Source: a virus
Reading direction: 5' to 3' (one strand)
Virus record (IMG/VR): IMGVR_UViG_3300035703_000137
Span: 1 to 48,508 of that record
DNA length: 48,508 nucleotides
The notes under the pieces were generated by a model. That model made no database searches. It saw nothing but the letters and a program-made list of their open reading frames with translations, and was not told the origin of the DNA. The position numbers and the translations under genes were made by a program. Below are positions 4,734 to 32,546 of this stretch, piece by piece (the first letter of the stretch is position 1; every line of letters begins with the position of its first letter).

Positions 4734-5783
4734 TTAAGCGGCGACAGCCATGCGCGCTGCTTCGAGCAGCGTCTTGGGCTGCGCCTTGGCGCCGGTTGCG
4801 GACGTGCCGGATGCGGGTGCGTCGGACGTGCGACGGGGCGCCGGGCGGAGGCGGGCGAACGTCTTGTTCACCTCCTCGTAAGCGACCCGCGCGAGAGCCA
4901 GCGCGTCCTCGGGAGTGCGCGGCGCCTTGCCGGTCTCCTGGACGATCGCGAGCACCTTGTCGCGCACGAGATCCTGCTTCTCGGACCAGTCGGGATCCGA
5001 CGTCTTGAGGCCCGCCTCCCACTTCGACACCTCGGAGCGGATGGCCTCCTTGGTGCCGGCGACTTCGCGCTCCGTTTCACGGGTGCGCGACTGATCGACC
5101 GTATCGGTGAGGCGCTTGTTGACGGCACGCAGACGTGCCGTTTCCTTCGCCGCCGTCTCGTCGATCGCGCCCTTGTCGACCTGCTCCTGCAGGTCCGCGG
5201 GCAGCCGCTCGCCGATCGCCAGCTCGAGAGTGCTGACGATCTTGCGGAGCTCGGGCAGCGCCTTGGCCGGATCGGTCTTGATCAGGGCCATCGTCTTGAA
5301 ACCCGCGACCACCTCGTCGACACTGATGCCGTTGGTGGTACGGAAATTCTCGATGACCTGAAGCTGATCGGCCGAGCGCTTGAGCTCCGTTACCTGGCCG
5401 GTCAGGGTCTCGAGTTCGCCCTTGAGCTTTCGCTCGCTTGCGACCTTCTCCTGCCAGCGCGGGTGCTTGTGGAATGGAACCGAGGCGTCGTCGTCCTTGG
5501 ACTCAGCCACTGCCGCTTTGCCGGCGGCGGGCTTGCCTTCAGACGAACCTTCCTGGGGTTTGAGGGCGGGCGATGCCTCACCTTCCTCGGGCTTCTTGAC
5601 GACATCCTTGACGATGTCGAGAAGGGCCTTCGGCTCGGTATTAGCGCCCTGGTCCGCGCCGGACGACTTCGCGGGGTCTGCGTCCGAAGATGTGGCTGCG
5701 GTCGACGCGCCGGTATCGGCGGCGGCCGCAGCGGGGGTCTCAAGTTCCGACGGTGACGAGCCGTCGAGGGCCGTTTCCGGCAT
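4734..5783 (-). CDS. Capsid assembly scaffolding protein
   Basis: The ATG at 5783 is chosen over one 24 bp upstream because GAGGAG sits 7 bp before it, inside the longer version. The 349-aa product is low-complexity, acidic and Ala/Pro/Lys-rich for the first 120 residues. It then becomes highly helical and charged (about 125-260: ERKLKGELETLTGQVTELKR and following), which predicts coiled coil. It ends in a basic segment (RLRPAPRRTSDAPASG). This architecture, and the place between portal and major capsid protein, is typical of internal scaffolds; the basic C-terminus would be the coat-binding end. No protease motif is visible. Confidence 0.75.
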   Translation of the reverse strand: MPETALDGSSPSELETPAAAAADTGASTAATSSDADPAKSSGADQGANTEPKALLDIVKDVVKKPEEGEASPALKPQEGSSEGKPAAGKAAVAESKDDDASVPFHKHPRWQEKVASERKLKGELETLTGQVTELKRSADQLQVIENFRTTNGISVDEVVAGFKTMALIKTDPAKALPELRKIVSTLELAIGERLPADLQEQVDKGAIDETAAKETARLRAVNKRLTDTVDQSRTRETEREVAGTKEAIRSEVSKWEAGLKTSDPDWSEKQDLVRDKVLAIVQETGKAPRTPEDALALARVAYEEVNKTFARLRPAPRRTSDAPASGTSATGAKAQPKTLLEAARMAVAA

Positions 5784-5869
5784 TAGCGTCTCCTCTTTGA
5801 GGGACACCCGCCCAGATGCGCCGGGCAGGCGGCGGCCCAGTTGACCCGGACCTACGACTTCAGACAGAC

Positions 5870-5898
5870 ATACTACATTCTGTCGCGATTATCAACAC
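5870..5898 (-). promoter_or_regulatory. Putative promoter and operator upstream of scaffold/capsid genes
   Basis: The 92-bp gap between portal and scaffold genes contains ACTACATTCTGTCGC (5872-5886), a member of the phage-wide 15-bp dyad family. On the minus strand this reads as a -10-like TAGTAT (5870-5875) preceded by TTGATA or TGTTGA at 14-16 bp, so the -35 spacing is poorer than at the other sites. It would drive scaffold, capsid and tail genes. Confidence 0.45.
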
Positions 5899-5899
5899 C

Positions 5900-8107
5900 C
5901 TAGGCAGCGCTAGGGGCGCCTCCGTCCGGACCGCCTGGGCTCCCGGGGTATGCCGGCTGCGCTCCTGGCGGGGTGCCGTCGGGCCGCGCGCCCTGGTCGC
6001 CGCCTTCGTCGCCCTGCGCGTTCGGATCGGCTGCGGCATCCGCCGGCGCCGCGGTCGCCATGCGGTTCTGCGCGACGATCGAGGCCATGCCGTCCTTGAG
6101 CGCTTCGGCCACGTCGCCGGTCGCCGGGTCGTCGATCAGCGAGATCAGCAGCTTGGCGATCCACATGGCTTGGAAGCCCGGCACCTGGACGATGAACGGC
6201 ATCAGCCGCTCGATATTGGCAATGTCGCGCTCCTTGTTCGGGCGGCCGCTCGATCCGCCGCGCACGATCAGGCCGATCTCCTTGGCCGCCTCGGCGCGCG
6301 TCATGGTCGGCCAGGCGGCGCCCGGCCCCGCGATCTCCTGCACCTTGGGCAGCGACATTTCGGTCACGAGCACCTGGCCGCCGTCGCGTGCGAGCTGCGA
6401 CAGCAGCTCGTCCAGATCGTCGGTGTTGGACGACAGCGAGGAGATGCGGCCGCTCTCGGCGATCGAGGCCTCGGTGGCGCCGCCGTCGCCGGTCATCGAC
6501 CCCATCTCGGAGGCGCCGCTGCCGACCGCGCGCTGCGCGTCCTGGAAGACCGTCTCGGTCTCGTAGAAATTCGGATCGATCGGGTGCTTCTGCACCGGCT
6601 GCAGCATGTCGGCGACCGACTGGCCGGGCGTCAGGCCCTTGAGCAGGATGATCTCGTGCGCCTGATGCTCGAGCATGCTGTTCTGGTCTTCCTCCTCGAA
6701 GGCGGAAGCCGGCGCGGCATAGAGCGGGCGCGAGGCGATGCGATGCTGGCGCCGCGCCTCCATGGTCCGGTTGTATTCCTGCTGCGGCGAGCGGAGCAGG
6801 CGCACGTCGGACGGCGGGAAAATCTCCTTCTCGTGCTCGACGTCGTTGAACGTCAGCGCGTAGACGGTAAAGAAACGTTCGAGCTGCACGTTCGGCTCGG
6901 CCGGTGCGCGCAGGTAATCCTTGTAGCCGACGCAGAGCGTGAACTCGAGACCGGTCGACTTCTGCTCGACGCGGTACACCTTGCAATGCTGCTCACCGGT
7001 GTCCTGGCCGTCGACATCCGCATCGACCTTCCAGCCGCCGACGAGCTCGCCCTTCGGCGAGTAGGCGGTGAACGAGCCGGTCACGTCGACCTTGTAGACC
7101 TCCTTGATCTCGTTGACCGTCAGCAGGTAGCGCTCGGCGATCCAGTCGGCGCCGGCCCAGGTCTTGAGGTTCGTGCAGGCCGTGTCGGGGATGATCGCGG
7201 TGGCGCGCGGCCAATGCCAGCGGAGCCCCTCGCGGATGACCACCTCCTCCTCGGCCTCCAGCGCCTTCTTCGTCTGCTGCATCTCCTCGACCTCGGCCGT
7301 GTCGGGCTGGATCTTGCCCTCGGCGATGTCGGCCTGCAGACGCTCCACGCGGCCGAGCCGCTGCGCCAGGTCGGCGATCTTGCTCTCGGTGTCCGGGTTG
7401 CGCTGCATCAGCCGCTGGAAGTCCAGCCGCACATAGCCGACGCCGCAGGTCACGACCCGGCGGACCATCTGCTTCATGCCTTCCTTGAAGCCGGGGATCT
7501 GTTCGTCGATGAAATACTTGAACAGGATCTCAAGCGTGCGCCCGAGCTTACCCATCATCTTGCGGTGCGCGAAGCCGTCGACCACGTCTTGCAGCAGGGC
7601 GACGGTCATCGGGCTCGGCGGCATCGCGGGGCCGCCCATCTGCATCGACTGCATCGCCATCGCCGCTTCCTGCATGGCCGCCTGCAGGGACGCCGGCTCC
7701 TCGTCCCAGATCAGGAAGTCCTGGCGGGCGCGGCGCTTGGCGATGAAGGTAGGCTGCCGCGCATAGAGCGCGGGCACGCGCGTCTGGATGTGGCGATGGA
7801 CGATGTTGAGCTTGTAGCGGTCGTCCTTGTCGGTGGCATCCGGGTACTGCTTGCCGAACGCGAAGTCCATATCCTCGGCCATGCGCTTGAACGCCGGCTC
7901 GTGGTGGCGCTCGGCGAGCTCGATCTTCTTCAGCCACTTCTTCACGTTGGCCGCGCGCGCCTCGGGCGGCTCGACGTCCTTGTCGGCACGCACGATCGCC
8001 GCCGGCTTCGGCGTGAAGGGCGACGGCGCCGCGCCCGGGGCGAACATCGCCATGATCGTGTCGGTGAGCGAGCCGCCTGCCTCAGCGGTCGGGTCTAGTC
8101 CGGTCAT
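5900..8107 (-). CDS. Portal protein (podovirus type)
   Basis: The 735-aa protein starts at the ATG at 8107, abutting the TerL stop codon. It follows TerL and precedes the scaffold, which is the usual place for a portal. The N-terminal half includes a helical AERHHEPAFKRMAEDMDFAFG stretch and KLNIVHRHIQTRVPALYARQP at about 90-125, as in large (about 700-aa) podoviral portals. A long helical stretch at about 245-290 (RLGRVERLQADIAEGKIQPD) and a Pro/Gly-rich acidic tail (after about 690) are visible. It forms the dodecameric DNA channel at one capsid vertex. Confidence comes from order, size and N-terminal pattern. Confidence 0.85.
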   Translation of the reverse strand: MTGLDPTAEAGGSLTDTIMAMFAPGAAPSPFTPKPAAIVRADKDVEPPEARAANVKKWLKKIELAERHHEPAFKRMAEDMDFAFGKQYPDATDKDDRYKLNIVHRHIQTRVPALYARQPTFIAKRRARQDFLIWDEEPASLQAAMQEAAMAMQSMQMGGPAMPPSPMTVALLQDVVDGFAHRKMMGKLGRTLEILFKYFIDEQIPGFKEGMKQMVRRVVTCGVGYVRLDFQRLMQRNPDTESKIADLAQRLGRVERLQADIAEGKIQPDTAEVEEMQQTKKALEAEEEVVIREGLRWHWPRATAIIPDTACTNLKTWAGADWIAERYLLTVNEIKEVYKVDVTGSFTAYSPKGELVGGWKVDADVDGQDTGEQHCKVYRVEQKSTGLEFTLCVGYKDYLRAPAEPNVQLERFFTVYALTFNDVEHEKEIFPPSDVRLLRSPQQEYNRTMEARRQHRIASRPLYAAPASAFEEEDQNSMLEHQAHEIILLKGLTPGQSVADMLQPVQKHPIDPNFYETETVFQDAQRAVGSGASEMGSMTGDGGATEASIAESGRISSLSSNTDDLDELLSQLARDGGQVLVTEMSLPKVQEIAGPGAAWPTMTRAEAAKEIGLIVRGGSSGRPNKERDIANIERLMPFIVQVPGFQAMWIAKLLISLIDDPATGDVAEALKDGMASIVAQNRMATAAPADAAADPNAQGDEGGDQGARPDGTPPGAQPAYPGSPGGPDGGAPSAA

Positions 8108-12252: not shown

Positions 12253-12786
12253 CTAGGGTGTGACTGGCTCGGCTATCGCATTGATTACGTTCACGTCTTC
12301 TGCTGGCGCGTCCGTCTCCCGTGCATCTTCCCGGGCATCTTGGCGCAATTGGGCAGCCATAGCGCGGAGCTCGTCCTCCGTCATCTCCGCTAGCGGTTTG
12401 CCCTTTAACTCCTTGATCTTATTGGCATCTTTGTTGAATTGTCCAAGATCCAGAACAATCTTGGCTGCCTTGAGGCGAGCGTCGCGCGGAGCCCCCGTAT
12501 CGGCCATCGTGTCGCGCAGGGTCTTGAGCGCCAAGCCGGTCAGCTCGCCGTCTACAAGTTCCGATCGGCGCTGACGCAAGGCCTTGATGACATGGGGCAA
12601 TCTAAGTAGGCGCCAAGCATCCGTCTTAGGGCTGGCGTAACCCGCCTCGCGCGCAGCCTCAGTCTGGCTCATGCCGCTGGCGACCATGTTCTCGACGAAC
12701 TGCAATTGCAGTTGCGTTAGTGCCTGGTCCTCTGAGAGAGCCGGGCGACCGCCAGGATGCTTCGGAACGGGAAGGGTTTCTGCCAT
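12253..12786 (-). CDS. terS: Terminase small subunit
   Basis: The 177-aa protein uses the ATG at 12786; a GTG 18 bp upstream is in frame but lies within the predicted promoter. The N-terminal half holds a clear DNA-binding helix-turn-helix of the TerS type (LTQLQLQFVENMVASGMSQTEAAREAGY, about 24-51, followed by a KTDAWRLLRLPHVIKALRQRR segment). The second half is helical (NKDANKIKELKGKPLAEMTED...) and would oligomerise. It recognises the packaging site and feeds DNA to TerL. It is separated from terL by fibre genes, an unusual split. The gene is transcribed away from the acidic-protein cassette, with operators between. Confidence 0.85.
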   Translation of the reverse strand: MAETLPVPKHPGGRPALSEDQALTQLQLQFVENMVASGMSQTEAAREAGYASPKTDAWRLLRLPHVIKALRQRRSELVDGELTGLALKTLRDTMADTGAPRDARLKAAKIVLDLGQFNKDANKIKELKGKPLAEMTEDELRAMAAQLRQDAREDARETDAPAEDVNVINAIAEPVTP

Positions 12787-12792
12787 CCCGCG

Positions 12793-12821
12793 ACCATACC
12801 TCACGCGATCGTGATCGACAA
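12793..12821 (-). promoter_or_regulatory. Putative TerS promoter, possibly leaderless, with operator in spacer
   Basis: On the minus strand TTGTCG (12816-12821), a 17-bp spacer and TATGGT (12793-12798) precede the TerS ATG by only 6 bp, so transcription would start at or next to the A of the start codon. The operator TCGACAATCTGTCGG (12815-12829) covers the -35. A GAGG 12 bp from the ATG is too far to be a good SD. Confidence 0.45.
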
Positions 12822-12895: not shown

Positions 12896-13375
12896 ATGAC
12901 ATACGGATCGATCGGCTCAATCTCGAGCGGCACGCTACTGCCCGCGGACCTGATCCCGGTTTTCGCGGACGAGCTCAAAGATCTGGCGAAGGCTTCCAAA
13001 TCGGATGCCTACAGGGACCTTCTAGCCAGGGCAGATGCCTGGATCGAAGTGGACGACAACATGGAACCGGGCGAGATCCCGGACAGTGACGAGCACGATG
13101 ACATCGGTCCCGAGCTGGTGATCGAACTTATGGATGCGCTGGGCGAGTTTGCGCCGCCCTACTTCTACTTCGGCACCCATCCCGGCGATGGAGCGGATTT
13201 TGGTTTCTGGCTGTACGAAGATTTTCAGCAGGACTTCGACGGCTTGACGGTCAGCGACACTTCCGAAGTGCCGGACGACTACGAGGGTGAAGTCCTACAC
13301 GTCAACGACCACGGCAACTGCACTCTCTTCGCCGCGCGCAATGGCGAGCTCAAAGAGATTTGGGCCGTCGTTTAG
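12896..13375 (+). CDS. Very acidic small protein, first gene of the plus-strand cassette
   Basis: The ATG at 12896 follows GTGAGG at 5-bp spacing. The 159-aa protein has about 36 Asp/Glu against 7 Lys/Arg, a strong net negative charge. It contains FYFGTHPGDGADFGFWLYED near 89-108 and SEVPDDYEGEVLHVNDHGN further on; I recall this pattern from uncharacterised proteins on plasmids and phages. The charge and the place as first gene of an early cassette behind two operators make a DNA-mimic or anti-defence role conceivable, but nothing in the sequence proves it. Confidence 0.65.
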   Translation: MTYGSIGSISSGTLLPADLIPVFADELKDLAKASKSDAYRDLLARADAWIEVDDNMEPGEIPDSDEHDDIGPELVIELMDALGEFAPPYFYFGTHPGDGADFGFWLYEDFQQDFDGLTVSDTSEVPDDYEGEVLHVNDHGNCTLFAARNGELKEIWAVV

Positions 13376-16595: not shown

Positions 16596-16601
16596 TCAGT
16601 C

Positions 16602-16630
16602 GTCATATCAGACAGCGACAATCTAGTCAA
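16602..16630 (-). promoter_or_regulatory. Promoter of the endonuclease gene, leaderless type, with operator
   Basis: On the minus strand TTGACT (16625-16630), a 17-bp spacer and TATGAC (16602-16607) lie 6 bp before the ATG at 16595; no SD is present. GCGACAATCTAGTCA (16615-16629) in the spacer is a degenerate member of the phage-wide dyad. Confidence 0.55.
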
Positions 16631-16722
16631 ACTATGTGTTACATTTTCGCCACACTCTCGTTTCTGACCCGTTTCTGGCCGTTGCTGGAATATGCCGCCT
16701 CACCCTCTCGATCGGGGGTAGA

Positions 16723-16793
16723 CCCTCCGGAGGGCGGGTGGAGTACCACCTCCACCCCTAGCCCTACGGGGAAGGGTTTACCCTCCCGTAGGG
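16723..16793. other. Cluster of three strong hairpins in the non-coding region
   Basis: Three perfect inverted repeats follow each other: palindrome CCCTCCGGAGGG (16723-16734), GGGTGGAG/CTCCACCC with a 6-base loop (16736-16757), and CCCTACGGG/CCCGTAGGG (16762-16793) with an inner AGGGT-TT-ACCCT stem. Neither strand has a T-run after them, so they are not ordinary terminators. They lie beside the iterons and could be part of an origin, a cruciform site or an RNA structure. Confidence 0.7.
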
Positions 16794-16862
16794 AGGAGAT
16801 TTCTAGCAACGCCGTAAACGCTTGATCCATAAGCGAAATTCGGCGTTTTTGACCCCGAACTG

Positions 16863-16992
16863 CCCGTGAACGTTACTGGATTGATTTCATTGAGCAATTT
16901 GACTTCATCCACAGGCCGTTCACGGCCGTTCACGGGTCCGTTCACGGGCGTTGACGGGCGTTCACGGCCATTCACGGCCGTTGCTAGCAACG
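16863..16992. other. Candidate replication origin: iterons, DnaA-box-like site, palindrome
   Basis: Six tandem copies of a 10-bp unit, consensus TTCACGGSCG, run from 16919 to 16980 (one copy is 12 bp), with a further inverted copy CCCGTGAACG at 16863-16872. The AT-richer stretch 16873-16913 between them contains TCATCCACA (16905-16913), one mismatch from a DnaA box. The array ends at the perfect palindrome CGTTGCTAGCAACG (16979-16992), whose TAGCAACG half recurs at 16804-16811. The whole gap 16596-17004 has no credible gene. Iterons of one helical turn suggest cooperative protein binding; origin versus operator cannot be decided from sequence alone. Confidence 0.6.
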
Positions 16993-17004
16993 ATCCGTAG
17001 CATT

Positions 17005-17277
17005 TTAGGTTCTTGATAACCCCGACATTCCAGCGTCGACAACCCGCCAATGTGCCACGCCCTTACGGTCGATATCGCCTACGTGGATCGGCCAGCGCTC
17101 GTCATACAGGGCGGAGATCCCGAAGCGATCCCAGAGCTCGTAGAGACGACCCAGATCGGCCTCCGGTGCAGCCTTCACTGCCATCAGGCTCGCGGCCCGC
17201 ACGATCGCAGGCGCGGCCACCAGGCCGGCGGCGGCGCCTCCCAGGAAGAAGCGGCGGGTGATCAAGCTGCCGACCAT
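17005..17277 (-). CDS. Small exported protein with Tat signal
   Basis: The 90-aa protein starts at the ATG at 17277 behind AAGGAG. Its N-terminus LITRRFFLGGAAAGLVAAP is a textbook twin-arginine signal (TRRFFLG, hydrophobic core, AxA-type cleavage near AIVRA). The mature part, about 60 residues, contains DLGRLYELWDRFGISALYDERWP and DRKGVAHWRVV. Tat export means a folded protein would be moved to the periplasm of a Gram-negative host. I recall similar short Tat-signal proteins in alphaproteobacterial phages, without known function. It is the last gene of the minus-strand early operon. Confidence 0.65.
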   Translation of the reverse strand: MVGSLITRRFFLGGAAAGLVAAPAIVRAASLMAVKAAPEADLGRLYELWDRFGISALYDERWPIHVGDIDRKGVAHWRVVDAGMSGLSRT

Positions 17278-19217: not shown

Positions 19218-20608
19218 GACGCCACCGCCGCGTGCGCCAACCCGTCCTCCATCACGATCCCGACCTTGCCGGTCGTGTCGACCTGTTCGATCCAGACCTG
19301 GTAGTCTCCATCGACCGCCATGTTGCGGATCATCTCCAGGCTGTGCTCGTCGAGCAGGGAGCCTTCCTTGATCCGCAGCACGCGGAGTTTCGGATTGCCG
19401 GCCATGGCGATGGCAACGCTGACGCGCAACTGCTCCGCGCTCGATGCTTGCGCGAACGGCACACGGTTGTAGAGCACGACCCCGTCGCCGAACGACAGCC
19501 CGGCGATCGGCATGACCGCGCGCTCGATGGCCGCAGCTTTCTGCGCCTTCCGCTCGTCCATGCGCGCGGTGAGCCCGGCCGCCTCTGCCTCCTTCTCCGC
19601 CACGCGCTTCTGCGTGAGCTCCTGTCCTTCGCGCGCCACGATGCCAGCGTTGATCAGGTTGGCGTTCGCGATCTCCTGGCGGATCGCCTCAACGTCCTCC
19701 AGCACGGGCGCCGCAGCGTCTTCGCCCAGGGCCATGGCCGCCTGATCTGCCTGCGCCCGCAGGTCCAGGATCTTGGCGGCGCGCTCGGATGTCAGCTTCT
19801 CTATGCGAGAAACATGATCGGCCTTCAGCGTCTCGATGCGCTTCTCGAGAACTTCGATTTGCTGCCGGCAGTACATGATGTCCGTGGCGACCTGGGCGTT
19901 AAGCCGTTCGATCTCCTTGCCGGTCTCGGCTTCCAGGCCGGCGGCGCGCTCGCGGTCGGCAGCGATGCGCTGCTCGGTCTGCGTCCGCCCGGCCCGCTGC
20001 GTCTGGATCTGCGCGTTCCGCGCCGCCGCATCCGACATGCGCTTCATCAGCGCATCCACGTCGATCCGCGCATCCGGCAGGCCGGGCGGGATCAGCGCCG
20101 GGTCGATCTGCGCCTGCAGGTTCTTGATCTCGCGCCCCACCTCGGTCCGCGCCTCGAAGTCCACGCGGTTGGCCTCGTCCAGCGCATCGACGTCCGTGTC
20201 GAGCGGCACCAGCTTCCGCAGCATGTCGTACTGGCTCCGCGCATCCAGGCGCGTGAACTCCAGCGGGTCGAAGCTGATGCTGCCGGCCATTTCGTCCAGC
20301 AGCTTCTGCGGGCTCGAGAACTTGGCGCCGTTGACGCCCTCGACGGTGAGCGTGGAGCCTGACGGCGTGAAGCGCCGGGTCACCACGATCTCGCCCATGT
20401 CGAGCCGGATGCGCGCGCTCTGCTCGCCCTGCCGGATCGGCTCCGCCGGCAGCGAGCGCCCGCCGGCCAGCGCGTAGTAGATGCTGTCCAGCACGCTCGA
20501 CTTGCCGCTGCCGTTGGCGCCGGTGATCTGCACGAGAGCGCCGTTCGGCGCGATCGAGACCGCGCGGATCTTCTTCACGTTCTCCGCGGCGAGGCTGATG
20601 ATCTTCAT
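19214..20608 (-). CDS. SMC/SbcC/RecN-like ATPase
   Basis: The 464-aa protein begins MKIISLAAENVKKIRAVSI with the classic SMC/RecF opening, followed by Walker A GANGSGKSS (30-38). A long charged coiled coil fills about 190-370 (heptads such as TEQRIAADRERAAGLEAE and EKRIETLKADHVSRIEKL). At the C-terminus an ABC-signature-like SSAEQLRVSVAIAMAG is followed by a degenerate Walker B (KLRVLRIKEGSLLDEHSLEMI). There is no nuclease domain of its own. It would act as a DNA-tethering or end-processing ATPase in phage replication, perhaps with the nuclease at 24449. It overlaps the primase-helicase gene by 4 bp (ATGA). Confidence 0.8.
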   Translation of the reverse strand: MKIISLAAENVKKIRAVSIAPNGALVQITGANGSGKSSVLDSIYYALAGGRSLPAEPIRQGEQSARIRLDMGEIVVTRRFTPSGSTLTVEGVNGAKFSSPQKLLDEMAGSISFDPLEFTRLDARSQYDMLRKLVPLDTDVDALDEANRVDFEARTEVGREIKNLQAQIDPALIPPGLPDARIDVDALMKRMSDAAARNAQIQTQRAGRTQTEQRIAADRERAAGLEAETGKEIERLNAQVATDIMYCRQQIEVLEKRIETLKADHVSRIEKLTSERAAKILDLRAQADQAAMALGEDAAAPVLEDVEAIRQEIANANLINAGIVAREGQELTQKRVAEKEAEAAGLTARMDERKAQKAAAIERAVMPIAGLSFGDGVVLYNRVPFAQASSAEQLRVSVAIAMAGNPKLRVLRIKEGSLLDEHSLEMIRNMAVDGDYQVWIEQVDTTGKVGIVMEDGLAHAAVAS

Positions 20609-22899
20609 GGGGTTGCTCCTTTAGGGACAATTTCACAAAGCGCGTCGTCGAACTCGTAATCGTTCCACTTCGGGCGCTGCTCCCACGCACCGTCCTTCGG
20701 TTGCGCCTCACCCTTCACGAACCGCCCACCCGGCACGTCCAGGTGCGCCTTGCGGTTTGCGAGCACCAGGCCGGCGGTGATCAGCTCGTCGGCCAGCGAG
20801 ATCACCTTGTTCTGCCCGGGGAAGACGTCGGGGAGCTCGCCGCGCCGCGCGGCCAGGCCGTTCCGACCGGTCTTCGTGAACGGGAACCCGGCCTTGGCCG
20901 CCTCGCGGATCGCGAACAGCAGCCACGCCTTCTCGGCCGTGAGCGCGATCCGCCCCTTCATCTCGCTCGCCTGCTCGTGCCAGCGCAGCTCGCCCGACGG
21001 CTCGCGCAGCAGGATGAACTCGCCGCGCTTGAGCTCCGGGTTGTTGCCCTTGATGATCCCCGCCTTGAACAGCACGCCCTCGCGCGGCTCCATGCCGCAC
21101 AGCTTCATGTGCTGCTTCCAGTCGGGATCCGGCCACATGCCGAAGACGCTGCGCGTGGCGTTCGGCAGGGCGGTCGCGCCGCGGATGCTGTCGCGCATCT
21201 GCCGGCCGGTGCGGATGACCGTCGCCTCGCTCGCCTTCCGCACATGGTGCGTCACGATCATGGTGGCGCCGATGTCGCCGCAGATCGGTTCGATCGCGAC
21301 GCGGCACCATTCCATCGCGATATGCGTGGCGTTCTCCTCGCCGTGCAGAAGCGCCGAATAGGTGTCGACGCAGACTAGCCGGAGATCCGGGATCTGCTTC
21401 AACTGCTCGACCAGCTCTCGCCACTTGCGGCTCGCCGTCGCGTTCCGCGCCGGGTCCATCTCGACCAGCGAGAAGGCGCCGCCCATGTTCGGCAGCGGCA
21501 GGACGATCAGGTTGTCGCCGCACTGCGCGCGGAACCCCCCGGTCGGATCGAGCGCGGCAAGCCGCGCGTGCATCTCCTCGTGATCGTCCTCGGCCAGCAG
21601 CAGCACGCATTTGCCGCCCGGCTCCATCCAGGAGCTCACGCGCGAGCAGAGCCACGGCACGTTCGGCCCGCTGGCGACCGCCATGCCGAGCTGCAGCAGC
21701 ATCCAGGTCTTGCCGACGCCGCCTTCGGCGACCCAGAGCTGAGGCTTGCCGTAGGGGATCAGGCCGTCGATCAGGAACTTTCGGGGCGGCGCCTGGCCCT
21801 TCATGGTGCGCCCGACCGCCCAGGCCGCGAGCGGGAACGGCAAATTCTCCGCCGGCGCCGAGCCCGGCCCCTCGAGACGCAGCGGCTCCCGGGCTGCCGG
21901 CGGGTTGGGGAATGGTCCGTGGCGGCCGATGTCGTGGTTGACCAGCCCCATGAACTCGCTGCGGAAGCGCTCCTCGGGCCACGGCGGCTGCATGTGCTTG
22001 TGCATCCAGGCGCGCGTGTTGTCGGCGGCCTCAGACAGGCTGACGACGCCCGTGCGCGCCAGATGGATCTCCCAGCCGGCGGTGCGGGTGAACTCGCTCC
22101 AGCGGTTGCGGTCGGCCTGGCCGCCTTCGGCGATGTCGGACGTCAGCACGCTCTCGATCGCGTGCCGATCGGCGCCGGCGGTCTTCGAGAAGTCCAGCAC
22201 GCCCTGCGTCGTCGGGGCTGCGGCGCCCTCCGGCAGCGGCAGAGAGCGGATGATGTCGGTGACGTCGCCGACTTCGATCTCAGCGTCTGCGTTCAAGCAC
22301 TCGATGGTGACGGGTCGGCGCTCGCCGTTCTTGGCGTGAACGGAACCAGGGATGCGGATGATCTGGGTGCAGCGGCCGAAGGCCGGGTCGCCGCCGATGG
22401 CGAGGGCCAGATGTTTGCGCAGACCAGCGACAAGATCCACCTCTGAACAGGGTTCAGAAAATCGCCAGTAGACGTGGCGCTTAGGGTGGCCTGTTGCTGT
22501 AGTGCCGCCAGAGCGCACGACAATAGATGGCCGTCCGACAATGCTCTCAGCTTGTCGAAGCCCTGCATCGGTGTCTCCCTTGTCGAGATCGACGATCAGC
22601 CCGAGCATGAGCGCGATGTCCTGCTCGCGCGCTCCGCCGCGGTGACCGCCGACGGTGTCCAGCAGCGGGCTCGGCACGATGAAGCTGCCGATGTCGTGCT
22701 CGGACCAGCGCTCTACGTGCCGCAGGACCGCGCTGACCGCCGCCTCGGCGTCCGGCTGGATCAGGTGGCTCTCGCGGAAGACGCCCTCTTTGGGCGTGCC
22801 CTTCTCGCCGAGCCCGCGCACTTCGAGATAGAGACCGGGCCAGTCGACGTAGCGGAACCAGGCGTCGAGATAGGCAGAAAGGGCGGCGGGGTCGGTCAT
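20605..22899 (-). CDS. Primase-helicase fusion (AEP primase plus RepA-type helicase)
   Basis: The 764-aa protein joins two enzymes. The N-terminal archaeo-eukaryotic-type primase domain has the hhhDhD motif LIVDLD at about 101-106, the RHVYWRF strand at 141-147 and IIRIPGSVHAKNG at about 180-192, the usual catalytic triad of motifs. The C-terminal RecA-like helicase has Walker A AEGGVGKT (391-398), Walker B LRLVCVDTYSA (about 507-517) and a TMIVTHHVRK sensor (about 546-555), as in RepA/AAA_25 helicases. It would prime and unwind phage DNA at the origin. No polymerase domain is present. It is coupled by 4-bp overlaps to both neighbours. Confidence 0.85.
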   Translation of the reverse strand: MTDPAALSAYLDAWFRYVDWPGLYLEVRGLGEKGTPKEGVFRESHLIQPDAEAAVSAVLRHVERWSEHDIGSFIVPSPLLDTVGGHRGGAREQDIALMLGLIVDLDKGDTDAGLRQAESIVGRPSIVVRSGGTTATGHPKRHVYWRFSEPCSEVDLVAGLRKHLALAIGGDPAFGRCTQIIRIPGSVHAKNGERRPVTIECLNADAEIEVGDVTDIIRSLPLPEGAAAPTTQGVLDFSKTAGADRHAIESVLTSDIAEGGQADRNRWSEFTRTAGWEIHLARTGVVSLSEAADNTRAWMHKHMQPPWPEERFRSEFMGLVNHDIGRHGPFPNPPAAREPLRLEGPGSAPAENLPFPLAAWAVGRTMKGQAPPRKFLIDGLIPYGKPQLWVAEGGVGKTWMLLQLGMAVASGPNVPWLCSRVSSWMEPGGKCVLLLAEDDHEEMHARLAALDPTGGFRAQCGDNLIVLPLPNMGGAFSLVEMDPARNATASRKWRELVEQLKQIPDLRLVCVDTYSALLHGEENATHIAMEWCRVAIEPICGDIGATMIVTHHVRKASEATVIRTGRQMRDSIRGATALPNATRSVFGMWPDPDWKQHMKLCGMEPREGVLFKAGIIKGNNPELKRGEFILLREPSGELRWHEQASEMKGRIALTAEKAWLLFAIREAAKAGFPFTKTGRNGLAARRGELPDVFPGQNKVISLADELITAGLVLANRKAHLDVPGGRFVKGEAQPKDGAWEQRPKWNDYEFDDALCEIVPKGATP

Positions 22900-23633
22900 G
22901 CGGCGGCCTGAATGCCGAGGAGGCGCTGCCGCGCCACTTCGGAGAAGTGACGGCTCTTCTCGATCAGAATTGCATTGCGACCCAAAGCATGTGTCGCCTC
23001 GCCTGTCGAACCAGACCCGGCGAATGGATCAAGGATCGTGTGCCCCGGCAGGCTCGATGCGCTGATGAACTGTTTCAGCAGGTCTATGGGCTTCTCGGTC
23101 GGATGCATGGCGTTGTGATGCATGGATCGCACCGGCATCACTGACCGTGCCCGTCGCGGGCCGCCGTCTACTGTCTCGTAGCCAACCGGCGCGTAAGTCC
23201 CGCGCTGGGCTGGCCCAGCGCGGGACTTCACCTTGCGTGCCGTCGCGTCGAAGGTGATCGGGTTGGATTTCGTGATCTCGGCCCACCGCGCGCCGGGCGG
23301 GCGAAGCTGCACAACGAGCTCGTGGACGCGATTGAAACGCCCGGCCCCGACCGGGCCGCTGCCGTTGTGCTTTTCCCACACCACCTCTTGACAGATCGGC
23401 CACGATGCGAGCTCGCCAGCGCGTTCCATGAAGAAGCGCAAGGAGCCGAAGCACCAGACTGACGCATGGGGCGCCAGCAGCGGGCGCAGCGCCTCCAGCC
23501 ACCCGGCCGCGTCTCGATCCCAGGCCAGCGTCGTTTCGACATATGGGGGATCGGTCACGACGAGATCTACACTGCCTGGCGGCAGGGCGCGCATGACTTC
23601 GCGGCAATCGCCTGTGAGGATCGTGACTGTCAA
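22896..23633 (-). CDS. DNA methyltransferase, beta class (N6-adenine or N4-cytosine)
   Basis: The start is placed at the TTG at 23633: it overlaps the previous stop as TTGA and the mature sequence TVTILTGDCREVM begins there; longer in-frame versions only translate the neighbour in a wrong frame. The 245-aa enzyme has the catalytic motif TDPPY (27-31) near the N-terminus and the SAM-binding motif DPFAGSGSTGE at about 203 near the C-terminus, the permuted order of beta-class enzymes (CcrM/HinfI type). No partner restriction enzyme is seen, so it is an orphan modifier, most likely for protection or regulation. Specificity cannot be read. Confidence 0.85.
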   Translation of the reverse strand: MTVTILTGDCREVMRALPPGSVDLVVTDPPYVETTLAWDRDAAGWLEALRPLLAPHASVWCFGSLRFFMERAGELASWPICQEVVWEKHNGSGPVGAGRFNRVHELVVQLRPPGARWAEITKSNPITFDATARKVKSRAGPAQRGTYAPVGYETVDGGPRRARSVMPVRSMHHNAMHPTEKPIDLLKQFISASSLPGHTILDPFAGSGSTGEATHALGRNAILIEKSRHFSEVARQRLLGIQAAA

Positions 23634-24448: not shown

Positions 24449-25393
24449 CTAGGTCGGCGGTGCCATCCAGTTCGGAGCGGCCACCGCGGCTGCGCCGCTC
24501 GGCGGCGCGCTCCAGCACCGTTCCTGGTAATTGCACCACTTGCAGGCGAAGGCCTCGCGGCTGGCGCCGGCGCGCGGAAGCTCCTCGGGCGACTGTGCGG
24601 TGATCACCTTCACGCCCTTGTCGATCGCTTCCTGGACAGCCGCCGGATCGAACGGCACAAGCTCCGCGTAGAGTTCGCCGGTGTCGCGGTTGGTGGCGGT
24701 GAACAGGCCGGGGTTCGCGCTCAGATCCAGGTGATGCATGTAGACCTGCATCTGCGTGTAGTAGATCGGCTTCGCGCGCTTGATGCCCTGCTTCAGGGTC
24801 TTGGCCCAGCCCTTCGCGTTGAGCCCCTTGTTCTCCCAGAGCGCGGGATACGCAAGCATCGCCACGCCATGCGGAACCTGGATGTCCGCCGGCCCCGCCG
24901 TCAGGATCCCGTCGACATGGCCCGCGATGCGCGGCTCTCCGGTCTCCGGGTGCTTGGCGATGTAGAAGCCGAACTGCCGGCCGTCGGCGCGCTCGGTCAG
25001 AAGCGTGAACCCGGCCTTGCGGAGATAGCTGGCGTTCCGCGCCTCGCCGTCATGGCCCATGTCGAAGATGCGCAGGGTCGAGCCGCTGAAGTGGCGGCCG
25101 GGATCAACCGGCGTGTGCGTGTATTCGTAGCCAAGCGCACGCACGCACTCGTGACCGAGCCGCGAGCCGCCGAGGTAGGTACGCGGCTCCTGTTCCTGCT
25201 GCGCGATCTCGAGCGCCTGGTCGATGTGCGCCTGGAAGGCGCGCGAAAACGGCTCGAACTTCGACGGCGACATATCGACCATGTCCGGCTCCTTGTGGCG
25301 CACCGCTGTCACGATCGCGCCGGGGAAATGCTTACTGACTTCGCGAACGAAGGGGTGGTTGTAGATGTCGGCCGGGATGTCAGCCGCAGCCAC
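24449..25393 (-). CDS. PD-(D/E)XK nuclease, Cas4/RecB-like
   Basis: The GTG at 25393 is chosen because GGGGAG stands 8 bp before it and the overlap with the cupin gene is only 14 bp, whereas the ATG at 25450 would overlap by 71 bp. The 314-aa protein carries the exonuclease core: IAGHVDGIL (catalytic Asp) and ALWENKGLN (ExK) with a following helix KRAKPIYYTQMQVYMHHLDL (QxxxY motif). A C-terminal Cys cluster (FACKWCNYQERCW) supports an Fe-S-type fold as in Cas4/AddB nucleases. It probably resects DNA ends for the Sak4/SSB pair upstream. Confidence 0.75.
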   Translation of the reverse strand: MAAADIPADIYNHPFVREVSKHFPGAIVTAVRHKEPDMVDMSPSKFEPFSRAFQAHIDQALEIAQQEQEPRTYLGGSRLGHECVRALGYEYTHTPVDPGRHFSGSTLRIFDMGHDGEARNASYLRKAGFTLLTERADGRQFGFYIAKHPETGEPRIAGHVDGILTAGPADIQVPHGVAMLAYPALWENKGLNAKGWAKTLKQGIKRAKPIYYTQMQVYMHHLDLSANPGLFTATNRDTGELYAELVPFDPAAVQEAIDKGVKVITAQSPEELPRAGASREAFACKWCNYQERCWSAPPSGAAAVAAPNWMAPPT

Positions 25394-25928
25394 GGCCGAT
25401 CTCCCCGGGCTTGCCGGGCTTGGTGAAGTCCTTCCAGTGGACCCAGCCATGGCTGCATAAAAATCCCCATGCCCGGATGCGCGGCCCGGTGATGAACAAC
25501 GACCAGCAGGGCGAGCTCACGACTAGGCGGTGCGCCGACGTCGGCCAGCGGAAGGTCAGGCTGCCGGTGCGGCGCTCGCGCGCCCTGTCGGGCAACTGGC
25601 CAGGGACGCCCTGCTCGAACACCTCGAAGTAGCGGCCGCGCAGGACCAGCGAGACGTTCGCCCACGGATGGTCGTGCAGCGCGCGGTCGTCGTCAGATCG
25701 GACGATCTGGTGCAGGTAGATGTTGAAGATCGGGTTGCGCGGGATCACGAACCAGCGCTTCAGATACGGATCGCCCTCCGGGCCGATGATCTGGTCGGGC
25801 TTGGAGATGCAGCGGACCGCGCCCAGGATCGCCGGATGGCGGACAGCGTAGCCGCACGGCCATTTCTGCAGCCACACCAGCAGCGTTGCACAGAAGTCGA
25901 GCCACAGGTCATGCATCTTGGAGCGCAT
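25380..25928 (-). CDS. Cupin-fold protein
   Basis: The 182-aa protein starts at the ATG at 25928, overlapping the zinc-protein gene by 20 bp, with AAAGG upstream. The central RALHDHPWANVSLVLRGRYF is a cupin metal-binding motif (HxH ... G), and a later HRLVV plus FLCSHGWVHW provide the second motif. Cupins bind small molecules or catalyse sugar/amino-acid modifications, but the substrate cannot be told. Similar cupins appear in GC-rich Proteobacterial phages. In the replication operon its role is unknown. Confidence 0.65.
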   Translation of the reverse strand: MRSKMHDLWLDFCATLLVWLQKWPCGYAVRHPAILGAVRCISKPDQIIGPEGDPYLKRWFVIPRNPIFNIYLHQIVRSDDDRALHDHPWANVSLVLRGRYFEVFEQGVPGQLPDRARERRTGSLTFRWPTSAHRLVVSSPCWSLFITGPRIRAWGFLCSHGWVHWKDFTKPGKPGEIGRGCG

Positions 25929-26142
25929 CGAGAAGCCTTTCCCAGGTTCGGGCCTGCCCGTAGGGCGACCAGGCGTAGCAGTCGTTGCAGAGCCGGAAGA
26001 CGGTTTCGCTGGCGGGCGGCCCGATCCCGCAAGTGGCGTGCCGGGCGCCGCAGCGAGCGCAGTCGGGCATCGGTGGAGGGTCGCGCCTGACATGTTCGAT
26101 CCGCCGCTGGTTGCCGATTTTCTTGCGCTGAACGCGAGCCAC
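25909..26142 (-). CDS. Small zinc-ribbon-like protein
   Basis: The 77-aa protein starts at the ATG at 26142 directly after the helicase stop codon. It has a basic N-terminus (MARVQRKKIGNQRRIEHVRR), a CARCGARHATCG pair and a later LCNDC, that is two CxxC-like sites that could bind one zinc ion. The rest is aromatic (WSPYGQARTWERLLDAL). A small nucleic-acid-binding or regulator role is possible; function unknown. Confidence 0.6.
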   Translation of the reverse strand: MARVQRKKIGNQRRIEHVRRDPPPMPDCARCGARHATCGIGPPASETVFRLCNDCYAWSPYGQARTWERLLDALQDA

Positions 26143-26143
26143 A

Positions 26144-27877
26144 TCAGGCCGCCCTCGGCATGCGTTGCGTCAGCTCGAGACGCGCACGGATCGCGCGCTC
26201 GTTGAACATCCAGGTCAGGTGGCAGGCGGCGACGTATTTGGTGAGGCCGGGGTTCGACGCGGCCTGCAGGCGCAGCAGGTCGAGCTGCTTCGGCGTCGCC
26301 GGCTGATACAGCCAGCGCTTCGCCTTGCCCGCGTCCTCGCCGTCGCCGTGCTCGCGCATGAAGTCGTCGGCCGATGCGAGCGACAGCAGCTTCTCGCTGT
26401 TGTCCGCCAGGTGCTTGCAGCCCTGCCCCTTCATCCCGCCGATCGCGTGCCAGCGGCCGGCGTAGGAGACCACGACCGCCCAGCTATCGAAGGCCGAGCA
26501 GATCCAGACCAGCCCGTCGAACATCGGCTCCCATTTGAAGGGGCTGCTGTCGAACAGCGAGATCTCGGTCAGGACGAAGGAACTGTCGTCCAGCATCTCC
26601 GGACCGGGGAACGGCTCGCCGCAATCGACGCAGACCTTGGCGGCCGTCGGGTTCTCGGCGCCGCACGGATCGCATATCTTGAACGGCGCCTCGCCCGAAG
26701 CCGGCCACTCGTAGCCGCAGATCGGGCATTCGCGCGTCTGCGCCGGCACGTTGGCCTTGCACTCCGGGCACTCCTTTGTGCCTTTCTGGTCGAGATCGGT
26801 GTCCTGCTCGATCCCGCCATGCATGATCAGGGAGGTGCCGAAGTCGATGACGATGCAGTCGTCCTTGTGGACGCCGGGATAGCGCTCGGGATCGACCTTG
26901 CGGAGCCCGCGGCCGATCATCTGGATCATCGTCGACTTGTAGGAACTCGGCCGCAGCAGGATCACGCAGCTCGTCGGCTGGTGGTCCCACCCCTCCGTGA
27001 GGACGGCGACGTTCGCGAGCACCTGGATCTCGCCTTTGTCGTAGGCCTCCAGCGTCTTCCGCCGATCGGCCTCGCCCATCTGCCCGTCGACCACCGCGAC
27101 CTTGACCCCGGCGCCGGCGAAGGCTTCGGCCATGGCGCGCGCATGCGCGACCGTCGAGCAGAACACGACCGTCTGCCGGTTGCCGGCGACGCGCTGCCAT
27201 TCCGAAACGACGCGCTCGTTCAGCACCGCCTTGTTCATGATGGCCTCGACCGCCACCATGTCGAAATCGCTCGGCGTCTTCCGCACCTGGTTCAGCGCGT
27301 CGCGGACGCCGATGTCGATGACGAAGGTGCGCGGCGGCACGAGGTGCCGCGCCTCGATCAGCTCCTTGAGGGTGATCTGGTCGGCGCAGTTGGAGACGAC
27401 CGAGCGTAGCGCCTTCTTGTCGCCGCGGTTCGGCGTCGCCGAGAGCAGCAGCAGCTTCAGGTCGGGATTGAGCTTGTAGGCCTGGTCGACGACGCGGCGG
27501 TAGCTGTCGGCCGTCGCGTGGTGCCCCTCGTCGATGAACATGCAGTCGATCGGCGGCATGGTCGCGAGGTTGTCAGCCAACGCCAGCGTCTGGATCATGG
27601 CGAAGGTGACGCCATACCCCCATTCCTTGCGCCTGGCCGTGTATTCACCGGTCGAGATCTTCGGGTTGATCAGCTCGAAGGTCGTCCGGTTCTGCGTCAC
27701 CAGCTCCTCGCGGTGCTGGATCACCAGCCCCGCCTGCGGCTTCCGCCGGCCGATGATGTGCGAACCCATGACGGTCTTGCCGGCACCGGTCGGCGCCACG
27801 CCGAGCGTGTTGCCGTTGGCGTTCAGCGCCGCGTCGCACCGATCGGAGAACAGGATCTGGCGGTCGCGAAGCTTCAT
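26144..27877 (-). CDS. SF2 DEAD/DEAH-type helicase with two zinc ribbons
   Basis: The 577-aa helicase has motif I APTGAGKT (28-35), motif II FIDEGHH (114-120), motif III LLLSATPNRGD (about 143-153), and motif VI QMIGRGLRK (319-327), preceded by an ANVAVLTEGWD strand. After the helicase core come two CxxC-type zinc ribbons: C370/C373 with C384/C387 and C402/C405 with C416/C419. The C-terminus (about 430-577) is a beta-rich domain. Such helicases remodel recombination or fork structures in phage DNA. It is coupled by ATGA to the previous gene. Confidence 0.85.
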   Translation of the reverse strand: MKLRDRQILFSDRCDAALNANGNTLGVAPTGAGKTVMGSHIIGRRKPQAGLVIQHREELVTQNRTTFELINPKISTGEYTARRKEWGYGVTFAMIQTLALADNLATMPPIDCMFIDEGHHATADSYRRVVDQAYKLNPDLKLLLLSATPNRGDKKALRSVVSNCADQITLKELIEARHLVPPRTFVIDIGVRDALNQVRKTPSDFDMVAVEAIMNKAVLNERVVSEWQRVAGNRQTVVFCSTVAHARAMAEAFAGAGVKVAVVDGQMGEADRRKTLEAYDKGEIQVLANVAVLTEGWDHQPTSCVILLRPSSYKSTMIQMIGRGLRKVDPERYPGVHKDDCIVIDFGTSLIMHGGIEQDTDLDQKGTKECPECKANVPAQTRECPICGYEWPASGEAPFKICDPCGAENPTAAKVCVDCGEPFPGPEMLDDSSFVLTEISLFDSSPFKWEPMFDGLVWICSAFDSWAVVVSYAGRWHAIGGMKGQGCKHLADNSEKLLSLASADDFMREHGDGEDAGKAKRWLYQPATPKQLDLLRLQAASNPGLTKYVAACHLTWMFNERAIRARLELTQRMPRAA

Positions 27878-31002: not shown

Positions 31003-31305
31003 ATGAACTATTTTACCCAAGCACAGGTCGCGGACCACCTTGGCCGGTCGCCTCGGACGATTGCTCGGTACCGCAAATGCGGCAAATTGCCCTATATTCA
31101 TGGTAAACCTGTATTAATTCCAATTAACGCCGTTCACGCACTCGTGATCACGGAGCCGGCCCCATGCCCCGCCGTAACCGCGGCCCGTATCTCTCGGACA
31201 AGCCCAACCAGGACGGCCACTACGAGATCAGATGGTCCGAGCACGGGCGCAGCCGACGCCGCTCTACGCGCTCGGGAGATCCTGTATTCGCTGGGCAAAT
31301 CCTAG
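31003..31305 (+). CDS. Small helix-turn-helix protein upstream of integrase (excisionase-like)
   Basis: The first 48 residues (MNYFTQAQVADHLGRSPRTI then ARYRKCGKLPYIHGKP) form an AlpA/MerR-type winged HTH as in excisionases. The tail of about 50 residues overlaps the first 142 bp of the integrase gene in another frame. The tail is low-complexity (Ser/Thr/Arg), so it may be an accidental extension or a true overlap. Role in excision is inferred. Confidence 0.55.
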   Translation: MNYFTQAQVADHLGRSPRTIARYRKCGKLPYIHGKPVLIPINAVHALVITEPAPCPAVTAARISRTSPTRTATTRSDGPSTGAADAALRAREILYSLGKS

Positions 31306-32342
31306 CGAACTTCATCCTCGGGTTTGACCGTCAGGCGTCGCGTCCGGTCGCCCGCCTCACCGTCGCCAAGGCCCTCGCCGACTATTGGGACGAGCATGTG
31401 CGACATAACGTCCTGAGTATCCAGACGGCGGCCTACGCGCTACGCGAGCTGGCCCGCGGCTTCGCCGGATACGACACCGAGTTTAACGTCAAGAAGGCCG
31501 ACACCTATTTCGAGGGTCTGGCGGTCCATGCAGACCGGAAGTTGCTATCAGACATCACGGTCGCGGACGTGCGGAAATATACCGCCGACCGCGGGGTTGC
31601 CGCCGGGTCCATCCGCCGCGAACTCGTGATGCTGGTGGCCGCCGGCAACCACGCCGCCCGACAAAAGCGGATCGAGGGCTCCGACCTGCCGCACATTCCG
31701 CTCCCGCCGCCTCCGGCGCCCGTGGATCGTTGGCTGACCGACGGTGAGACCGGTCGGCTGCTCCATGCCGCGGCGCATGCCGAGGGCTACCAGGACGGCC
31801 GGCTGACGCGCGCCTATCGGTTCATCGCCCTTGCGCGGTACACGGCCGCCCGCCGCCGTGCGATCGAGACGCTGACCTGGGCGCAGGTCGACCTGCAGCG
31901 CCGGACCATCCGCTACAACCCCGAAGGGCGCCGCCAGAGCCGCAAGAAGCGCCCGGCCGTGCCGATCGCCGACGTGCTCTACCCGGTGCTGGTGCGGGCG
32001 TTCGAGGAGAAGACCGGCGATTTCGTGCTCGACCACCAGGGCTCGATCCGCGCGACCTTCGAGACGACCGTCTGGAATGCCGGCCTCGAGGGCGTCACGC
32101 CGCATGTCCTGCGCCACACCTGGGCGACGCGCGCAGCTCAGGAAGGCGTGCCCTTGGTCGACGTCGCCGGCATGCTGGGCGACGAAGTCGCGACCGTGGT
32201 GAAGAACTATTTACACCACTGTCCCGAGCATTTGAGAGGCGCCGCCAATGCCGGGCACGACCGGGGCATAACGCCCGCCTGGGCGCCTCCCGTGTCCGGT
32301 ATTGACCGATTTTGTCATACACCCGACACAGAAAATCAATAG
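31164..32342 (+). CDS. int: Tyrosine recombinase (integrase)
   Basis: The 392-aa integrase starts at the ATG at 31164 behind CGGAG. It has an N-terminal Arg-rich arm, a core-binding domain (about 62-170) and the catalytic domain with R230 (ARYTAARRRAIETLTW), K261/262 (RKKRPAVPI), H314 and R317 (TPHVLRHTW), and the nucleophile Y349 (KNYLHH). The usual third His/Trp position is Asp here (MLGDEVATV), as in many phage integrases. It would recombine the attP candidate 20 bp downstream with a host tRNA-Thr gene. Gene order repressor-HTH-int-att fits a lysogeny module. Confidence 0.9.
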   Translation: MPRRNRGPYLSDKPNQDGHYEIRWSEHGRSRRRSTRSGDPVFAGQILANFILGFDRQASRPVARLTVAKALADYWDEHVRHNVLSIQTAAYALRELARGFAGYDTEFNVKKADTYFEGLAVHADRKLLSDITVADVRKYTADRGVAAGSIRRELVMLVAAGNHAARQKRIEGSDLPHIPLPPPPAPVDRWLTDGETGRLLHAAAHAEGYQDGRLTRAYRFIALARYTAARRRAIETLTWAQVDLQRRTIRYNPEGRRQSRKKRPAVPIADVLYPVLVRAFEEKTGDFVLDHQGSIRATFETTVWNAGLEGVTPHVLRHTWATRAAQEGVPLVDVAGMLGDEVATVVKNYLHHCPEHLRGAANAGHDRGITPAWAPPVSGIDRFCHTPDTENQ

Positions 32343-32471: not shown

Positions 32472-32546
32472 GCCGCCTTAGCTCAGTGGCAGAGCGCGTC
32501 CTTGGTAAGGACGAGGTCGACAGTTCAATCCTGTCAGGCGGCACCA
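32472..32546 (+). tRNA. tRNA-Thr(GGT) with encoded CCA
   Basis: GCCGCCT at 32472 pairs with AGGCGGC to form the acceptor stem. The D arm is GCTC-AGTGGCA-GAGC, and the anticodon arm CGTCC-TTGGTAA-GGACG gives anticodon GGT. The T arm is GACAG-TTCAATC-CTGTC. CCA follows at 32544-32546. All stems pair, so it should be functional. It is transcribed with the integrase side, convergent with the late operon. Confidence 0.95.

Follow-up and report, generated by a model that had tools for sequence, protein, structure and literature searches.

A phased 10-bp iteron array downstream of a phage primase-helicase gene marks a probable origin of replication

Genome organization around the gap

The window analysed here, a 48,508-base virus record, has ends (1–352 and 48157–48508) that overlap by 352 bp at 95% identity. 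The record thus represents a nearly complete and closed genome of about 48.16 kb, with strain variation in the overlap. An early block on the minus strand encodes a Sak4-like annealing protein, a possible SSB, a DNA helicase, a Cas4-type exonuclease, a DNA methylase, a primase-helicase and a RecF/SMC-like ATPase. Past this block lie several small genes, a non-coding gap, a gene for a resolvase-like nuclease and then the terminase, portal and capsid genes, the small terminase gene being located at 12253–12804, 3.8 kb from the gap (Table 1). Downstream of the primase-helicase gene, approximately 3.6–3.7 kb with several small genes separate it from the gap. The initial annotation had placed the repeats in the only gene-free gap longer than 300 bp, which our gene list confirms, as the next-longest gaps measure 244 and 239 bp.

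Other features of the genome merit description. The reading frame at 17005–17277 (minus strand) encodes a 90-residue protein starting with a twin-arginine (Tat-like) signal (MVGSLITRRFFLGGAAAGLVAAPA), an unusual product beside replication genes. A gene at 25380–26144 (minus strand), the product of which matches in its C-terminal half a phage family annotated as cysteine dioxygenase (E 5.9e-53), sits between the Cas4-type exonuclease and helicase genes. The DNA methylase gene contains a perfect 34-bp inverted repeat (AAGTCCCGCGCTGGGCTGGCCCAGCGCGGGACTT, 23195–23228), the best near-perfect hairpin of the window. A tyrosine-type integrase gene (31164–32342) is directly followed by a complete tRNA-Thr (GGT) at 32472–32546, a candidate attachment site, and the phage is therefore probably temperate.

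Table 1. Features of the gap and of the genes discussed in the text
Feature	Position	Strand	Remarks
Proposed origin region, non-coding gap	16596–17004		409 bp; sole gap longer than 300 bp on the gene list used
Holliday-junction-resolvase-like nuclease, 339 aa	15576–16595	-	Adjoins gap; phrog_190, E 3.6e-24
Promoter-like TTGACT-17-TATGAC, resolvase side of gap	16602–16630	-	Spotted by eye; absent from the list of the consensus scan
Second mini-array CGTTTCTGACC / CGTTTCTGGC / CGTTGCTGGA, degenerate, 10–11 bp	16659–16690	+	TRF period 10 at 16669–16688
Large imperfect stem-loop, 68 nt, 27 pairs	16716–16783		DNA fold; 16715–16800 folded alone
Hairpin in AT-richer segment	16808–16847		DNA fold; includes GTAAACGCTTGAT at 16814–16826
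Inverted iteron CCCGTGAACG	16863–16872	-	Inverted pair, 100% complementary
DnaA-box-like TCATCCACA, probably chance	16905–16913	+	One mismatch from TTATCCACA
Iteron array, six CGTTCACGG-type units of 10 bp (one of 12 bp)	16914–16982	+	TRF score 95; never matched in shuffles
Perfect palindrome CGTTGCTAGCAACG, 14 bp	16979–16992		Partial copy at 16800–16811
Primase-helicase, 764 aa: weak RepB_primase match, AAA_25/RepA-like helicase, C-terminal domain	20605–22899	-	Pfam, PDB profile match
Winged-helix-like C-terminal domain (residues ~650–724), candidate iteron reader	20728–20952	-	AF2 pLDDT ~90 here

The iteron array and neighbouring elements

The array units start at 16919, 16929, 16941, 16951, 16961 and 16971, the 12-bp second unit giving a spacing of 10, 12, 10, 10 and 10 bp. 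They had been described as six tandem TTCACGGSCG units: the count of six stands, but the exact consensus occurs in only three of them, five carrying TTCACGG and the sixth TTGACGG. The inverted copy reported at 16863 is present. Including it, one 7-mer occurs six times in 120 bp, which ranks this cluster first among the short repeats of the window. When the whole window was dinucleotide-shuffled (n=60), one 7-mer reached at most four copies per 120 bp, and shuffles of the gap never reached six (n=2000) or five (n=500). The TRF score of the array is likewise the highest in the window (next, 82), and the 22-bp period (3.5 copies) that TRF also reports only describes this array in another way.

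We found no direct homologues of the array among the phages or plasmids searched, and a scan of genome contigs returned a spurious match only. The sole 19-mer match in viral contigs (L004) looks coding and corresponds approximately to the number expected by chance. The closest relative of the window (L002, ~90% primase identity) could not serve as a comparison, as its contig ends within the primase gene, short of the gap. We also discarded the array as coding sequence: units recurring every 10 bp shift out of frame, and a 90-residue open reading frame with a TTG start that spans the array (16778–17050) overlaps a better gene.

The remainder of the gap is structured. The segment 16759–16908 has a GC content of 0.49, the second lowest of any 150-bp window of the whole stretch, and the single-strand DNA fold of 16690–16860 has a z-score of -5.2, with no shuffle equally stable; the large stem-loop comes with an alternative pair of hairpin arms (16762–16770/16785–16793). 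The perfect palindrome noted at the array end is present, although as a class such sequences are near chance level and not rare as such (13 palindromes of 14 bp in the window versus 7.5 expected). The same holds for the DnaA-box-like sequence, as boxes with one mismatch number one in the gap (0.2 expected) and five in the window (5.6 expected). Since a single near-match is about what chance gives, the suggested role of host DnaA is unsupported, and the boxes beyond chance that would characterize a DnaA-dependent iteron origin were not found. Cumulative GC skew, put forward in the initial annotation as a check, reaches its minimum at 21,890, at a distance of 5 kb from the array, and is small overall, with a net 439 bases over 48 kb. 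Of eight relatives examined, four have the minimum within ~2 kb of the primase-helicase 3' end and four do not. GC skew decides nothing on the position of the origin.

The primase-helicase

Pfam identifies an AAA_25 domain in the 764-residue protein (E 1.1e-30) and no D5 or TOPRIM domain; the RepB_primase match is weak (E 0.0013, 19 bits, below the 24.3-bit cut-off). A profile built from 14 homologues has RSF1010 RepA (1g8y) as its only PDB sequence match (E 9e-17), and RepB' structures are not among the matches. Homologues match at 29–43% over most of the length, those of Rhizobium and Wolbachia phages aligning over the helicase and C-terminal part only, and 15 relatives can be aligned at the C-terminus. 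The Rhizobium and Wolbachia phage homologues point to alphaproteobacteria as the likely hosts. The model of the whole protein has moderate quality (pTM 0.45). The best PDB matches of the C-terminal model (pLDDT 80) are LexA, DtxR and MotA, at a probability of 0.87 and non-significant E-values of ~0.1–0.4. As this gene defines the family in which repeat clusters recur (see below) and its predicted product ends in a winged-helix-like domain, we consider it plausible that the primase-helicase reads the iterons through this C-terminus.

Repeat clusters recur downstream of the primase-helicase gene

We searched 45 contigs, nearly all related by terminase, for the primase-helicase and found it in 18; 16 of these, fetched whole or in large part, together with the window constitute a set of 17 genomes. 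A genome-wide scan for clusters, defined as at least four copies of any 7-mer on either strand within 200 bp of non-coding DNA, detected 12, nine of which (in nine genomes) lie 0–4.2 kb downstream of the primase-helicase gene, where 1.4 are expected. Across nine settings, this zone holds 6–14 clusters versus 0.9–2.7 expected and the equal-sized upstream zone 0–2; the downstream zone is devoid of such a cluster in 5–11 of the 17 genomes, depending on the setting. Because the 4.2-kb limit was picked with the distance in the window (3.7 kb) already known, the cluster of the window itself is to be discounted, which leaves 8 of 11 clusters in the zone versus ~1.3 expected. Moreover, the genomes share ancestry, three clusters having GAGGAA in common, and the nine clusters are therefore not independent events.

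The repeated word varies between lineages and the position is constant: CCGTGAA in the window, CGTTGGA in G078, CGTCCTC in G071, CGAGGAA in G069 and G074, TGAGGAA in G067, AGGGACG in G079, AGACACC in G083 and AGGTATA in G080, some clusters being less than 300 bp from the gene. Several comprise 6–10 copies, direct and inverted, accompanied by hairpins and AT-rich DNA. In G078, a region starting 183 bp after the gene combines seven CGTTGGA iterons of both orientations with AT-rich DNA and a 15-bp hairpin. Hairpins did not qualify as an origin marker. The best perfect hairpin of the genome lies 1.8–3.5 kb downstream of the primase-helicase gene in G054, G056 and G074; since the hairpin of G067 resembles a terminator and the best perfect hairpin of the window lies outside the gap, we treat hairpins as supporting evidence only. 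One of the four lowest-GC windows falls within 4.2 kb downstream of the gene in 7 of 13 genomes, slightly above chance.

We also looked outside this set, at three named phages with a homologous helicase. In Rhizobium phage RHph_Y3_1, eight CGTTCCCA words (12936–13124) occupy a 306-bp gap and begin 3 bp past the stop codon of the annotated primase/helicase gene. Vibrio phage 1.123.O has seven CCGCGAG repeats 420–670 bp before the homologous helicase gene (L242:4320–4571) and a second CCGCGAG cluster in another gap at 32.7 kb (about 32681), far from the helicase; the two gaps could represent two origins or the sites of a regulator. No cluster was detected in phage WO at the main setting.

A dyad count over 16 such regions ranked TTAAnnnnTTGA, AAGTnnTTGA and TAAGnnnTTGA among the top, with six regions each and a shuffle maximum of five. 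The motif TAAGTNNTTGA has 16 sites in 20 genomes; the downstream zone holds seven, versus 1.7 expected, and the window has only a degenerate match to it, GTAAACGCTTGAT. We regard this second motif as a lead of modest strength.

Finally, GTTCAC at 10-bp phasing occurs at 65 viral loci, 51 of them intergenic and some in P4-like elements, versus one locus at 13-bp phasing. A control scan with the reversed hexamer at 10 bp returned 25 loci (19 intergenic), the GTTCAC core thus being 2.6-fold commoner. These 25 loci indicate that arrays phased at 10 bp abound in phage gaps irrespective of the word; the 10-bp format is not diagnostic, and we retain GTTCAC as a P4-type code only as a lead. Among non-P4 GTTCAC arrays with a recognised primase-helicase, 14 of 16 lie within 5 kb of that gene (6.8 expected, p 0.0002). 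Intergenic 10-bp-phased arrays of many words are widespread in viral contigs (for example, 13 copies of GTTCACAGCA at L107:7678–7803, and L155–L178), and CACTTG arrays turned up in the control scan. In another contig, a GTTCAC array (L103:5629–5654) lies 12 bp past the stop codon of an AAA_25 helicase-primase gene (5667–7595), the product of which has no blastp match to the window protein (E 1e-5).

A probable origin of replication and its alternatives

We propose that the gap is probably the replication origin of the phage, with iterons opened by its own helicase-primase. The proposal draws on the direct and inverted iterons, the AT-richer segment, the GC-rich stem-loop and the recurrent place downstream of the replication operon; because about half of the relatives carry different repeats past the same gene, the gap is the most likely start of genome copying. 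The initial annotation had called the region an origin with Rep-type iterons, a view that the comparative clusters strengthen and that its own DnaA and skew evidence does not.

The serious rival is an operator, at which the repeats would bind a phage transcription regulator, controlling the resolvase gene or an early-to-late switch, with replication starting elsewhere. A promoter-like sequence accompanies the gene that the gap directly precedes, the palindrome, with its partial copies, resembles an operator, the clusters are located between the early and late blocks, and Vibrio phage 1.123.O has its repeat in two separate gaps. The resolvase gene, however, was not found in the relatives, in which the link to the primase-helicase nonetheless persists; several clusters, with their 6–10 copies in both orientations, hairpins and AT-rich DNA, exceed a usual operator; and no regulator gene was recognised beside the gap of the window. 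We thus rate the operator as unlikely, while giving it more weight than the two readings that follow.

Short direct-repeat arrays are also typical of plasmid partition sites, and in other phages a few GTTCAC arrays have ParB-like genes beside them, which would fit a centromere-like or packaging (pac) site bound by a partition or terminase protein. We find this improbable, as the scanned window proteins included no recognisable ParA or ParB, the small terminase gene lies 3.8 kb away and the clusters track the primase-helicase gene, some of them to within 300 bp. A neutral expansion of repeats in an unconstrained gap agrees with the abundance of phased 10-bp arrays of other words in phage gaps and is the least credible of the alternatives, indeed very improbable: slippage does not make inverted copies, unequal spacing or diverged spacers, and the position recurs in 9–10 genomes.

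If the gap is an origin, the phage initiator, most likely the winged-helix-like C-terminal domain of the primase-helicase, would bind the CGTTCACGG iterons, and this binding would melt the AT-richer stretch beside them, after which the RepA-like ring helicase would load and the primase domain would begin DNA chains at the gap. Priming might take place on the exposed stem-loop, a guess by analogy with the ssi stem-loops of RSF1010, where RepB' primes (PMC4434180), and with pRN1-type stem-loops (PMC4234260).

A broader reading, which we judge somewhat short of probable, is that of a portable replicator shared across the lineage, in which a RepA-type helicase and primase are fused to a winged-helix domain and iterons lie just downstream of the gene (words CGTTCAC, CGTTCCC, CGTCCTC, CGTCCCT and CGTTGGA). 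As the word changes and the place stays, initiator and origin would co-diverge, leaving each phage with a private origin code. Most phages of this kind have no mapped origin. Confirmation would turn the position into a rule, by which the most prominent non-coding repeat cluster next to a RepA-like helicase-primase gene predicts the origin, both in a family of uncultured phages and in Rhizobium phage RHph_Y3_1 (host named in the record). The evolution of origin recognition could then also be studied in a natural set of initiator domains, each matched to its own iterons.

Comparison with known replication systems

A single intergenic region of IncQ plasmids, oriV, contains iterons, palindromes and both AT-rich and GC-rich stretches (PMC7557826), and the gap of the window similarly unites iterons, AT-richer and GC-rich parts and palindromes. 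The resemblance to RSF1010/IncQ extends to the RepA-type hexameric ring helicase, which the window encodes, and may extend to a RepB'-type primase, to which the RepB-primase match of the same protein, though weak, would point. In contrast, helicase and primase form one protein in the window, with an added C-terminal domain, and the three or more 20-bp iterons of RSF1010/IncQ have their counterpart in 10-bp phased units. No RepC-like family match was obtained among the open reading frames scanned near the gap, a search that a very divergent RepC would escape.

The alpha protein of P4 combines a TOPRIM primase with an SF3 helicase, P4-like loci having D5 matches. According to the P4 record, the type 1 repeats of ori (TGTTCACC) are 8-mers 10–11 bp apart with inverted copies, and crr is a cis region 46 bp after the alpha gene; a winged helix reads the repeats (PMC4234260). 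The earlier statement that iterons of one helical turn are typical of Rep-binding arrays is thus loose, fitting the P4 8-mers and not the 20-bp units of IncQ. The window resembles P4 in its single multifunctional primase-helicase, in having its gap downstream of the primase-helicase gene, as crr is downstream of alpha, and possibly in its type of repeat, which shares the GTTCAC core, the spacing and inverted copies and has different flanks. It departs from P4 in its RepA/AAA_25-like helicase, with no D5 or TOPRIM, and in its one region, whereas P4 has ori plus a crr with 120-bp repeats. Because phased 10-bp arrays are common whatever the word, the likeness to P4 is a functional analogy, with no evidence of descent.

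Replicons of the pRN1 ORF904 and Bordetella phage BIP-1 type join an archaeo-eukaryotic primase, an SF3 helicase and a winged helix, with a stem-loop 3' of the gene (PMC4234260). They share with the window the fused primase-helicase-winged helix architecture, as predicted for the window protein, and the stem-loop downstream of the replication gene, and differ in their SF3 helicase and in proposed origins without iterons. In summary, since a defining feature of each was looked for and not found, namely 20-bp iterons for IncQ and a D5 or TOPRIM domain for P4, the window is neither an IncQ nor a P4 replicon; its gap is probably a variant of the iteron origin, a member of neither group and functionally like both RSF1010 oriV and P4 ori.
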